The notes beneath the pieces were generated by a model that was given only the letters and a program-made list of their open reading frames with translations, did not search any database and was not told where the DNA came from. From positions 1-25,781 of the IMG/VR virus record IMGVR_UViG_3300028678_000015: 25,781 bases of DNA, one strand, 5' to 3'. The DNA is from a virus. Shown piece after piece: positions 1,513-17,451 of this stretch (position 1 is its first letter; every line of letters starts with the position of its first letter). The position numbers and the translations under genes were made by a program.

Positions 1513-2034
1513 TTAATCTCCTATGGCTTTAAATTTACATTTTGGTTTAAAATTGCGCTGATCTCTTTTTTCTTTTCCGAAATTCAAAAATTCAACACAT
1601 TGCTTTAAGTACTCAAGCCCTATTTTTTCGGCATCGTTAGCGATTATGATTATTGTTTTGTAATCGACCGGCTCACTGAATTGGCCTTGCTTTTGAACCA
1701 TTCCGAAAGCTGTAGCATTTACATTCTGATTACGGACGAAGCGAGAATAAACAAGATAACCCATAGCCTTTTTTAAGCCCTCACAATGTCTATTGTCTTC
1801 ATCGTAGAAGCAACCATTCAAAAGGTTAGTGATGGCCTCTGTTAACTCTACAGGATTTGGATCCTTGATGCTTTCAGAGATAGCAGTCTCTATTACTTTG
1901 AATTGCTTAGCTCCTAGTTTTGGAATGAGAAAGAGATTTTCGCACTCCTCGATATAAGGAATCAATCTTTTTTCATCGTTCACGTTTTCAGCTATCGGCC
2001 GAACGGATCTAATATCTTGCGGTGTAATTATCAT
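1513..2034 (-). CDS. Head-tail connector / DNA-packaging adaptor-like protein
   Basis: This 173-residue, mostly helical protein overlaps the portal stop by 4 bases (ATGA). Its N-terminal pattern, IRPIAENV-like followed by LIPYIEECENLFLIPKLG and an all-helical middle, resembles a Bacteroidetes phage connector family that I believe is labelled DUF6712. Members sit next to the portal and are thought to act like gp6-type adaptors that extend the portal for tail attachment. The C-terminus is basic (KEKRDQRNFKPKCKFK). Position directly after the portal is the strongest support. I see no catalytic motif. The function is inferred from gene order and general similarity, not from a diagnostic motif. 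Confidence 0.6.
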   Translation of the reverse strand: MIITPQDIRSVRPIAENVNDEKRLIPYIEECENLFLIPKLGAKQFKVIETAISESIKDPNPVELTEAITNLLNGCFYDEDNRHCEGLKKAMGYLVYSRFVRNQNVNATAFGMVQKQGQFSEPVDYKTIIIIANDAEKIGLEYLKQCVEFLNFGKEKRDQRNFKPKCKFKAIGD

Positions 2035-3377
2035 ACTACTGGAATTATTGGAATTAAACTGTTTGCCTCATCTTCAGAAAGTCCGAAAAGTGTTTTTGCA
2101 ATACTTCTTTTTAAATCAGGAGTGATCGCAGAATCATTTATGATTTTCATAAACTCGGTCAATTGTTTTTCCCCCAATCTATCTGCTAGTGTCATTTCGA
2201 CTTCATAAGAAAGTGGAGTGACTGAGTAATTACCGCTAGTAGGTTCGAACCAATGTTGGAAAATTGTTGCGAACACTCTCTCTACTGCCAACCTTTCATT
2301 TTCAGTTACTGAATTATAGTAATTGTAAGCGTTAAGCATTAAATCAGCTCCGAAATTGGCTCCTACGTCTTCTGCTCTCAATATTGGTGGTTGATTAAAT
2401 GACTTACCAATATTTGACTGAGAGCTTGTAAGGGTTACATTAAACTCCTTATCGTAATTAGTACCTTTGAAAGAAGTAAATACCGGCGCTGTCTCTCCTG
2501 TTCCGATTGTCACATGCATAATCTTGCATGCAGATTCATCTCCCTGGAATGATTTAAGAGCTACCTCTGTAGCCGTTTTCTCATCCTCTCTACTTTCTCC
2601 GCTTGACAATCTTCTTTCGTCCTCTGATTCGCTATCCCCTGGTTCTATGTTAGCTGCACTTTCATTATCATCGACTGTTTCAATCAGCATACCGGCTGCC
2701 ATAAAATTATTACGAGCATTGCGATTTGATACGTTAGAGATCCCCTCTTCTGTATTCATATCTGTCAGAACTGCATCATAAATTGGTAGAGGGTAAACCC
2801 TTTCTCCCTCATTTGAGAAATAAAGAATTTGTCCTTTATAGTTAGCCCATCCTTTAGATTCATCCACTTGTGCTTTTATTTCTTCCGGATCCGGATTAAA
2901 AAAGTCGACAAACTTAATATCGTCCTTTTTCCACTTGCGCAAATTTAAAAACCGTCTCCCCCAATCAGGGTGTATGGCTAGCTTGTCAAAATAACCTGAA
3001 TCTGGATCAAGTGCTTTAAATCGTAATTGTTCAAATGGGATGTGTTGAAGTTCGCATATTTGAAAGTTTGCATTATAATTTACATGAATAGCGAACCCTC
3101 CAAACTCTGCAAAATCTTTTGATATCTGATCAGAGATATAGTCATTTGTATGGCCAAATCGATTTACTATTTTTTTGTACAGATCAACATCCTCGAAGCC
3201 TTTCCCACTGATGAATTTTGCATATACACCAACGCAAGCCTTACCGGTTCCTGACGCGTTGACTATTTCCATAACCTGTTGAGGGTAGTCGTTTGAGTCT
3301 CCGTAAGATTGAACCCCTAGGCCTTTATCGTTCCTGAGTGCAAATCTGTTATCTCTCTTAAGTGTAGTTGCTTTCAT
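2031..3377 (-). CDS. Phage portal protein
   Basis: This 448-residue protein has the look of the portal family found in Bacteroidetes siphoviruses: an N-terminal YGDSNDYPQQVMEIVNAS segment, then ACVGVYAKFISGKGF (about residues 48-61), a central alpha/beta region, and a later QSNIGKSFNQPPILRAEDVG segment of the clip or wing type. Portals form the dodecameric ring at one capsid vertex through which the terminase pumps DNA. An acidic and serine-rich stretch lies at about residues 236-270 (DDNESAANIEPGDSESEDER and beyond), which looks like a disordered loop. The gene follows the tRNA at a 13-base gap and is coupled to the connector downstream. It lies after the capsid gene, whereas most siphoviruses place the portal before it. 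The start at ATG 3377 has no Shine-Dalgarno sequence. Confidence 0.8.
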   Translation of the reverse strand: MKATTLKRDNRFALRNDKGLGVQSYGDSNDYPQQVMEIVNASGTGKACVGVYAKFISGKGFEDVDLYKKIVNRFGHTNDYISDQISKDFAEFGGFAIHVNYNANFQICELQHIPFEQLRFKALDPDSGYFDKLAIHPDWGRRFLNLRKWKKDDIKFVDFFNPDPEEIKAQVDESKGWANYKGQILYFSNEGERVYPLPIYDAVLTDMNTEEGISNVSNRNARNNFMAAGMLIETVDDNESAANIEPGDSESEDERRLSSGESREDEKTATEVALKSFQGDESACKIMHVTIGTGETAPVFTSFKGTNYDKEFNVTLTSSQSNIGKSFNQPPILRAEDVGANFGADLMLNAYNYYNSVTENERLAVERVFATIFQHWFEPTSGNYSVTPLSYEVEMTLADRLGEKQLTEFMKIINDSAITPDLKRSIAKTLFGLSEDEANSLIPIIPVV

Positions 3378-3390
3378 GGTAAAAATTTAG

Positions 3391-3463
3391 AGCCTAATGA
3401 GGGACTCGAACCCCCGACCTATTCATTACAAATGAATAGGTCTACCAACTGAGCTAATTAGGC
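3391..3463 (-). tRNA. tRNA-Thr (anticodon UGU)
   Basis: The minus strand folds as a tRNA of 73 bases. The acceptor stem GCCTAAT/ATTAGGC is perfect over 7 bp. The D arm is GCTC-AGTTGGTA-GACC with one C-C mismatch. The anticodon stem ATTCA/TGAAT encloses the loop TTTGTAA, so the anticodon is TGT (reads ACA and related threonine codons). The T arm is GGGGG-TTCGAGT-CCCTC with one G-U pair. No CCA is encoded, so it would be added by the host enzyme. It is unusual in that the anticodon stem can extend to 8 bp (CCTATTCA/TGAATAGG) at the expense of the D stem. It sits inside the structural operon, between an unknown gene and the portal, so it is probably cut out of the operon transcript. Confidence 0.9.
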
Positions 3464-3466
3464 ATT

Positions 3467-3496
3467 AAGGTCTGTACATAAAATAGTACAGACCTT
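3467..3496 (-). other. Perfect 11-bp RNA hairpin between a gene and the tRNA
   Basis: AAGGTCTGTAC and GTACAGACCTT form a perfect 11-bp stem with an 8-base A/T loop. It starts 4 bases after the stop codon of the upstream minus-strand gene and ends 3 bases before the tRNA 5' end. On the minus strand no T-run follows, so it is not a standard terminator for the operon. A short T-rich stretch follows it only on the plus strand. A processing or mRNA-end-protecting role next to the tRNA is an inference. Confidence 0.6.
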
Positions 3497-3500
3497 TGTT

Positions 3501-4229
3501 TTAAACTTGCGTTTCGGTGTTTTCTAAGTCTTCAGTTTCTGAAGTGTCGACATTAGTTTCTGAATTCTCAGTCGATGCGTCCGAGGCTGGAGGAATAGCT
3601 AAAAAGATAGCATTAGCACGTTTGATGAAAGCGTCTAACGAACGTTGAGTTAGTTTTACCGAACCTACATTTTCAACATTTTTGAATGTTGATTTAATGT
3701 TTGTTTTTGTGACGTTATTTTTCAAAAGGGTTACGATCTGAGAAACAAAGTTTTCTTCAACTTCTTTCTGAAGTTCTAAGGCGGAGGCCTTTTCTTCATC
3801 TGAAAGCTCATCACCGGGCAAAACATAAGCAGCTATCAACTCATCTACGTTTTCTGGCAGTTCTTGAAAGTACTTACGACATCCGGGATTTGTTTTCAAA
3901 TGGTACAAAGCTAAATCATCTGTGATATTAGCATTCGAGCAAAGAAGATCGTTATCCTGGTTGATGACATCATGCAATAATGCACCTGCCAAAAGCAAAA
4001 AGAGACATTTAATTTTTTCCATTACAGTGTTAATATTTAAAGATTTCAATTGAATATAAGCATCGAAGTAACAGTTACTACATCCGCTTACTGATTTGTG
4101 AAAGATTGCTTTGCTTAAGAACTCGATTTCATTTCGCAATGCAAGATTTGTTTTTAAAGAGGTAATCAGTTCACTGGGATTAGCAAACTGATTACTTTCT
4201 TCTTGTAGTTTTTTTAGCCTACTGATCAT
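3501..4229 (-). CDS. Conserved phage protein of unknown function
   Basis: This 242-residue protein has no enzyme motif that I recognise. A CxxC pair is visible in SGCSNCYFDAY (C50, C53), followed by a hydrophobic stretch at 75-85 (CLFLLLAGALL) and then NITDDLALYHLKTNPGCRKY with FQELP. I associate this pattern with a protein in structural modules of Bacteroidetes phages. The C-terminal 35 residues are rich in Glu, Ser and Thr and look disordered. Its position between the putative tail tube and the tRNA-portal group suggests a structural or assembly role. It overlaps the upstream gene by 4 bases (ATGA). An internal Met at residue 70 starts a segment that resembles a signal peptide, but the conserved block spans it, so I keep the long start. 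Confidence 0.65.
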   Translation of the reverse strand: MISRLKKLQEESNQFANPSELITSLKTNLALRNEIEFLSKAIFHKSVSGCSNCYFDAYIQLKSLNINTVMEKIKCLFLLLAGALLHDVINQDNDLLCSNANITDDLALYHLKTNPGCRKYFQELPENVDELIAAYVLPGDELSDEEKASALELQKEVEENFVSQIVTLLKNNVTKTNIKSTFKNVENVGSVKLTQRSLDAFIKRANAIFLAIPPASDASTENSETNVDTSETEDLENTETQV

Positions 4230-16912: not shown

Positions 16913-17413
16913 TCAAACATATTTTAATGTTGTATAATTTGGATTTTGTCCATTCAACATTGACTTTAATGTTGAATATTTTATTCCATAATTTCCTATT
17001 CTAATCACTTGAGTTACTGAATCAAATATTTTACCAGTATTAGTGTCTTTCACTTTCTTTGAGAATCCATTTTTTGATTCAACATTGATAACTGGCTTTT
17101 TTAATCCAATCGAATATGCATGCTTTAAATTATATGATTGAGTACACCACTCTAAATTTGTTACCGAGTTATTTAATTTATCCCCATCTTTATGGTTCAC
17201 AACATTTAATTCATTTTCATTTGGGATAAAGTATAAAGCAACGAGCCTGTGTATTTTTACAGATTTCCCTTTTAGATTTACAAATGCATACCCCTCTGTA
17301 TTTACACCTCTTTTAAGTATCTTCCCGCTTTTGTCATTTATTACATTGCCGAAATCTGATATTTTATAATTCGTCCCTTTGATTTGTTTAAAGTCTTCTT
17401 TAGGTGCTGGCAT
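16913..17413 (-). CDS. HNH homing endonuclease (NUMOD4-HNH)
   Basis: This 166-residue protein has the modular order of a free-standing HNH homing endonuclease. A NUMOD4-like segment with YKISDFGNV lies at 16-24. HRLVALYFIPN starts at residue 55, and the HNH core VVNHKDGDKLNNSVTNLEW spans 71-89, giving H74 and Asn residues for metal and DNA contact. A NUMOD1-like DNA-binding tail is at about 123-155 (TGKIFDSVTQVIRIG and onward). I start it at ATG 17413; the TTG six bases earlier is less likely. Its N-terminus MPAPKED resembles the small terminase start CAAPKGH, and the two share a 12-base sequence. The gene lies directly before the small terminase. Homing nucleases often sit beside packaging genes; whether this one cuts there is inferred. 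Confidence 0.85.
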   Translation of the reverse strand: MPAPKEDFKQIKGTNYKISDFGNVINDKSGKILKRGVNTEGYAFVNLKGKSVKIHRLVALYFIPNENELNVVNHKDGDKLNNSVTNLEWCTQSYNLKHAYSIGLKKPVINVESKNGFSKKVKDTNTGKIFDSVTQVIRIGNYGIKYSTLKSMLNGQNPNYTTLKYV

Positions 17414-17451
17414 AGTCAATGAGTTTGCAAGTTTATTTGTATTATTCCTTA

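Follow-up and report, generated by a model that had tools for sequence, protein, structure and literature searches.

Template switching at quasipalindromes, in which one arm of an imperfect inverted repeat templates changes in the other and so renders the repeat perfect, is established in E. coli, with first observations in T4 rIIB and in yeast (PMC7202029; this and the other papers named here are cited from extracts). The cases treated in the extracts are E. coli thyA and lacZ, T4 rIIB and yeast CYC1; a related kind of template switching, in ribosomal RNA genes, makes or keeps hairpins, rewriting several stem bases of an RNA gene per event (PMC8794818). Here we describe a phage tRNA-Thr(UGU) gene whose long anticodon stem is very probably the product of such a quasipalindrome 'correction', one arm having been copied from the other. 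It would share with the E. coli, T4 and yeast cases the passage from imperfect to perfect repeat and the templating of one arm by the other, and with the rRNA cases the rewriting of several stem bases in a single event. Unlike the former, as far as the extracts describe them, it concerns natural tRNA genes, a fixed position (24, plus 26/27) and environmental phages; and whereas the rRNA changes in the extracts are compensatory and keep structure, the change described here disrupts the D stem and sets up a competing hairpin. A literature search of partial coverage returned no description of such a scar in tRNA genes.

A tRNA-Thr gene with a long anticodon stem

The DNA analysed (the window) is a stretch of 25,781 nucleotides, positions 1 to 25,781 of IMG/VR record IMGVR_UViG_3300028678_000015. 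The features around its tRNA gene are listed below, with tRNA positions counted from window position 3463.

2031..3377, minus strand: portal protein gene (phrog_11226, E 1.8e-90)
3391..3463, minus strand: tRNA-Thr(UGU) gene (ARAGORN; cmscan 60.6 bits), with C11xC24 in the D stem
3416..3442, minus strand: perfect 10-bp inverted repeat about the anticodon loop (tRNA 22-31/39-48)
3437..3440, minus strand: three clustered changes at tRNA 24, 26 and 27 (GCGG in relatives, CCTA in the window; alignment with contigs L002 and L003)
3467..3496, no strand assigned: 11-bp hairpin with an 8-nt loop, directly upstream of the tRNA
3501..4229, minus strand: gene of unassigned function, upstream of the tRNA slot (phrog_37138, E 7e-07)

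An earlier note on this DNA had placed the tRNA gene between two genes of the same strand, and these prove to be the phrog_37138-like gene and the portal gene, the latter 13 nt from the end of the tRNA; the portal, capsid-region genes, protease and terminase all lie, like the tRNA, on the minus strand. That note had also looked to the covariance score, a poor one counting against the gene, and the score is good: the match to Rfam RF00005 reaches 60.6 bits, above the gathering cut-off of 29. The C-C mismatch that it saw in the D stem is confirmed as pair 11-24, and a four-pair D stem with this pair intact is absent from the window tRNA. The long stem is likewise real, although the eight pairs first reported understate its length, which is 10 bp. 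Its arms are GACCTATTCA and TGAATAGGTC (window 3416-3442); counted together with the two innermost pairs of the loop, they make up the longest perfect inverted repeat in the window (arm at least 10, loop at most 30), and the 27-mer of the repeat (tRNA 22-48) is found in IMG/VR in only two contigs, both of the same virus.

The minimum-energy fold predicted for the window RNA is the long hairpin, with the D stem absent (-30.2 kcal/mol, z -4.9), against a normal cloverleaf for the L003 allele (-23.8 kcal/mol); because neither base modification nor tertiary contacts enter into such predictions, the difference indicates a tendency to misfold rather than proof of it. The covariance scores of the two alleles are 60.6 and 71.9 bits, respectively.

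Three changes complete an inverted repeat

Over 485 bp (3322 to 3806) the window and L003 are identical except at 3440, 3438 and 3437. In L003 and L002 the anticodon arm is an imperfect inverted repeat, mismatched at 24:46, 26:44 and 27:43 among ten potential pairs; all three window changes fall in the 5' arm and all three complement the 3' arm exactly, giving a perfect repeat. L002 differs from both the window and L003 elsewhere in the 485 bp and agrees with L003 at the three sites. Because this outgroup has the ordinary state of L003, the window allele is derived by parsimony, and because two further contigs, L023 and L024, also carry it, it is no single-assembly error. Intermediate alleles number zero among only five records (the window, L002, L003, L023 and L024).

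The completed repeat exceeds chance. By exact enumeration over the 485 bp, three scattered substitutions complete such a repeat in 100 of 510,207,390 outcomes (2.0e-7), and three substitutions within four bases do so in 22 of 39,069 (5.6e-4). On the alignment, then, there are three changes, clustered, fitting the opposite arm exactly and derived by parsimony, and the three-site change looks like one mutational event.

For this single-event origin, and for the fold-back step within it, we infer the following course. The ordinary anticodon arm is a hidden quasipalindrome, in which positions 22-31 (GAGC, N26 and the stem) are nearly complementary to positions 39-48 (the stem, N44 and GGTC) and usually fail to match at 24:46 and 26:44. 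In the lineage of this phage, a replicating strand would fold back on the 3' arm, copy it and switch back, so that one event would overwrite positions 24, 26 and 27; the product would break the 11-24 pair of the D stem and favour a predicted hairpin of 10-12 bp.

A competing account is that a decaying tRNA gene collected point mutations one at a time and became palindromic by coincidence, and the broken D stem, together with the loss of one T-arm base in L002, suggests that constraint may be relaxed. Yet the 485 bp hold no other change, all three changes fit the complement, and the same pairing is present in 7/7 filtered C24 tRNAs (below), and we consider this account highly improbable.

The same pairing in other tRNA genes

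In a scan of IMG/VR for stretches that resemble tRNAs and combine C24 with GGTC at 45-48, we found the strict D-loop C24 form in 3 contigs, two of the window virus and one, L195, with a tRNA-Asn; GGTAGACC is present in 3 IMG/VR contigs, against at least 120 for the ordinary G24 form, GGTAGAGC. A looser C24 form yielded 52 stretches, which, with one Bacteroidia match (L365) added and identical copies merged, give 47 distinct ones. ARAGORN calls ten of the 47 as tRNAs, eight of which are perfect 10-bp palindromes and two of which (L327 and L338) are non-palindromic. When the matches are filtered on acceptor, T stem and the 5' arm of the D stem, leaving the anticodon arm out of the filtering, 7/47 pass, and every one of the seven has the perfect 10-bp palindrome. 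Among the matches listed for ordinary viral G24 tRNAs, 11 of 100 filtered sequences are complementary at 26:44 (Fisher 1.2e-6 versus C24), and ARAGORN calls give 8/10 for C24 versus 12/111 for G24, the latter again among the matches listed; this G24 control comprises 80 loci among the matches listed and is no random sample, and because four of the ten pairs are set by the survey pattern itself, variation is possible only at 26:44 and in the stem.

The C24 stem change spans Ala, Arg, Asn, Met, Thr and Val tRNAs, several of which are attachment sites. L352 differs from phage CobraSix at one position in 193 nt, L339 from KM389253 at one position in the 200 columns shown (865/901 match overall) and L365 at one position in 67 bp from a second copy that its genome carries, the difference each time being G24 to C; one change sufficed in these three because 26:44 was already paired. 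L367 also shows G24 to C alone, within the tRNA. Any one of these single-change cases could be an ordinary point mutation. Among tRNAs with several changes, a close relative is available for that of the window alone; the unmutated relatives of L342, L343 and L195 are too distant to isolate the change, and for L326 coverage among the matches listed is limited to the neighbouring tRNA-Asp. The mechanism predicts symmetry, with copying from the 5' arm to the 3' arm as well; across 196 Bacteroidia genomes this reverse footprint was found in none, a zero that is uninformative because the forward footprint itself occurs in just one, at an attachment site. In L365 (1480-2883) the tRNA-Met with the perfect anticodon-arm palindrome stands directly before an integrase; the unmutated second copy is on a different contig of that genome, an arrangement like that at element junctions.

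Four palindromic tRNAs, in L320, L342, L343 and L365, adjoin tyrosine integrases, so that selection for symmetry could have shaped them as core sites, each a 7-bp loop between 10-bp inverted repeats. Those integrase neighbours make the reading tenable for the four, though not for the window, where the Thr tRNA lies within the virion operon. The IMG/VR contig L023, which is 100% identical to the window over 7175 bp and runs beyond it, adds two features:

L023 11180-12364, minus strand: integrase-like ORF, 394 aa (reading of the translation)
L023 12500-12576, minus strand: tRNA-Pro(GGG), 135 nt upstream of the integrase-like ORF

The integrase-like ORF of the window virus thus adjoins a tRNA-Pro(GGG), away from the Thr tRNA, and as an explanation of the long stem we hold a symmetric core site to be extremely improbable. 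The 394-aa ORF reads as a tyrosine integrase, and the tRNA-Pro(GGG) is likely the attachment site of the window virus, beyond the window start; because L023 adds these two genes, the window phage is probably temperate. It shares with tRNA-dependent lysogeny, as the extracts of PMC10865867 present it, a tRNA of its own and a tyrosine integrase in a probably temperate phage, and differs from it in that the tRNA on the integrase side, Pro(GGG), is of another isotype than the Thr tRNA.

Decoding, decay and nuclease evasion

With the 11-24 pair broken and a hairpin of 10-12 bp predicted, template switching as proposed here would have left a tRNA whose decoding is probably impaired, although at a covariance score of 60.6 bits it could still be functional. 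None of the changes reaches the acceptor/T half, so that processing at both ends of the tRNA, 5' and 3', could go on beside the portal message. Gene decay, one of the fates that the earlier note had offered, fits these observations: the D stem is broken, the score lies 11 bits under that of the sister allele and the change has the look of one event. The best fit is with a lesion that is near-neutral or decaying, and most likely the tRNA now does little as a decoder and is an essentially neutral or slightly harmful scar. Thr(UGU) function would come from the host itself. Compensation for codon bias makes a weak case, as ACA and ACG are used nearly alike in late and early genes (ACA makes up 36% of late-gene and 31% of early-gene Thr codons; ACG, 13% and 16%).

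The long stem might instead be an adaptation for nuclease protection or stabilization, selected in several phages. Its recurrence across isotypes and phages would suit such selection, and phage tRNAs are able to escape host defences (PMC10264068, PMC11555353), the pattern described in the extracts of PMC10264068 being mutation of the anticodon loop. The window tRNA has in common with those nuclease-evading tRNAs an altered anticodon arm; unlike the loop-mutated evaders, it keeps its loop (TTTGTAA) intact, and the new pairing is confined to the stem and variable region. The reduced cleavage once suggested for it is unsupported, since the anticodon loop is unaltered. The form is also rare in IMG/VR (the 3 contigs against at least 120 noted above), several of its cases are attachment sites, and a C-C mismatch was created and none repaired, so that we regard adaptation as very improbable. 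The earlier note had named the same stem in the host's own tRNA-Thr as a second finding that would count against it, and the stem was therefore sought in the tRNA-Thr genes of 198 Bacteroidia genomes, which may not be the host's group: the C24 form of Thr(UGU) occurs in none of them and the G24 form in 60, matched by a pattern in which the loop is likewise TTTGTAA.

tRNAs in the gap before the portal gene

Among relatives of the portal gene, the gap before it is often occupied by a hairpin or a tRNA. A T-loop motif was found in 12 of the 70 loci examined (some loci share contigs, and four are without an upstream ORF), and L040 adds one more slot tRNA by covariance score; across 28 virus records Rfam has 12 matches to tRNAs, and 10 of these fall inside the pre-portal gap. 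The window clade of the portal tree comprises 15 rows, 10 of which have a slot tRNA: a tRNA-Thr in three (the window, L002 and L003) and a tRNA with a CAU anticodon in seven others (L006, L011, L012, L013, L015, L039 and L040). The constancy of that anticodon speaks for a decoding role in those seven rows. Several of the CAU tRNAs have A11:U24 and an unpaired 1-72, which we take to be initiator-type features; a GGG/CCC anticodon stem is present only in L011. The distance from the end of the slot tRNA to the portal start codon is 13-15 nt in the loci compared, and the slot tRNA may define the 5' terminus of the portal transcript.

Two further gaps (L018 4940-5000 and L053 4885-4957) hold pre-portal remnants with a T arm and acceptor pairing, the D and anticodon arms being absent; Rfam returned only sub-threshold matches for both, so 'tRNA-like' is here a reading of the acceptor/T pairing. 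The annotations of six cultured relatives list no tRNA near the portal. A prophage search found the portal family in 18 of 395 Bacteroidia genomes; it yielded 22 loci, and in the 15 of them run through ARAGORN no tRNA was found.

Wider implications and other features of the window

A more general reading, which we think possible but doubtful, is that every tRNA combining GAGC at 22-25 with GGTC at 45-48 is a template-switch hotspot, at which fold-back during replication recurs and yields a 10-bp anticodon hairpin; the scars would be eliminated from cells and kept in phages. In the portal leader of this phage, on the same reading, only the acceptor/T half would be needed, as an RNA-processing signal. 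If true, this would explain the changes in identity of the slot tRNA, the loss of its D stem and its shrinkage to an armless remnant. The template-switch origin proposed above for the window tRNA itself accounts mechanistically for an unusual tRNA shape that might otherwise be read as adaptive. It predicts a palindrome-completing mutation at a fixed position in tRNA genes wherever selection on decoding is relaxed, a scar that should be countable in any genome collection and inducible in a reporter.

Elsewhere in the window, an HNH/NUMOD4 endonuclease gene (16913-17419, minus strand), probably a homing endonuclease, overlaps at its end the beginning of the gene for the small terminase. At the contig end (25056-25781), a tandem repeat encodes a leucine-rich protein of the 'SLPDNLTVGG(S/Y)LDLRGTAIA' type.
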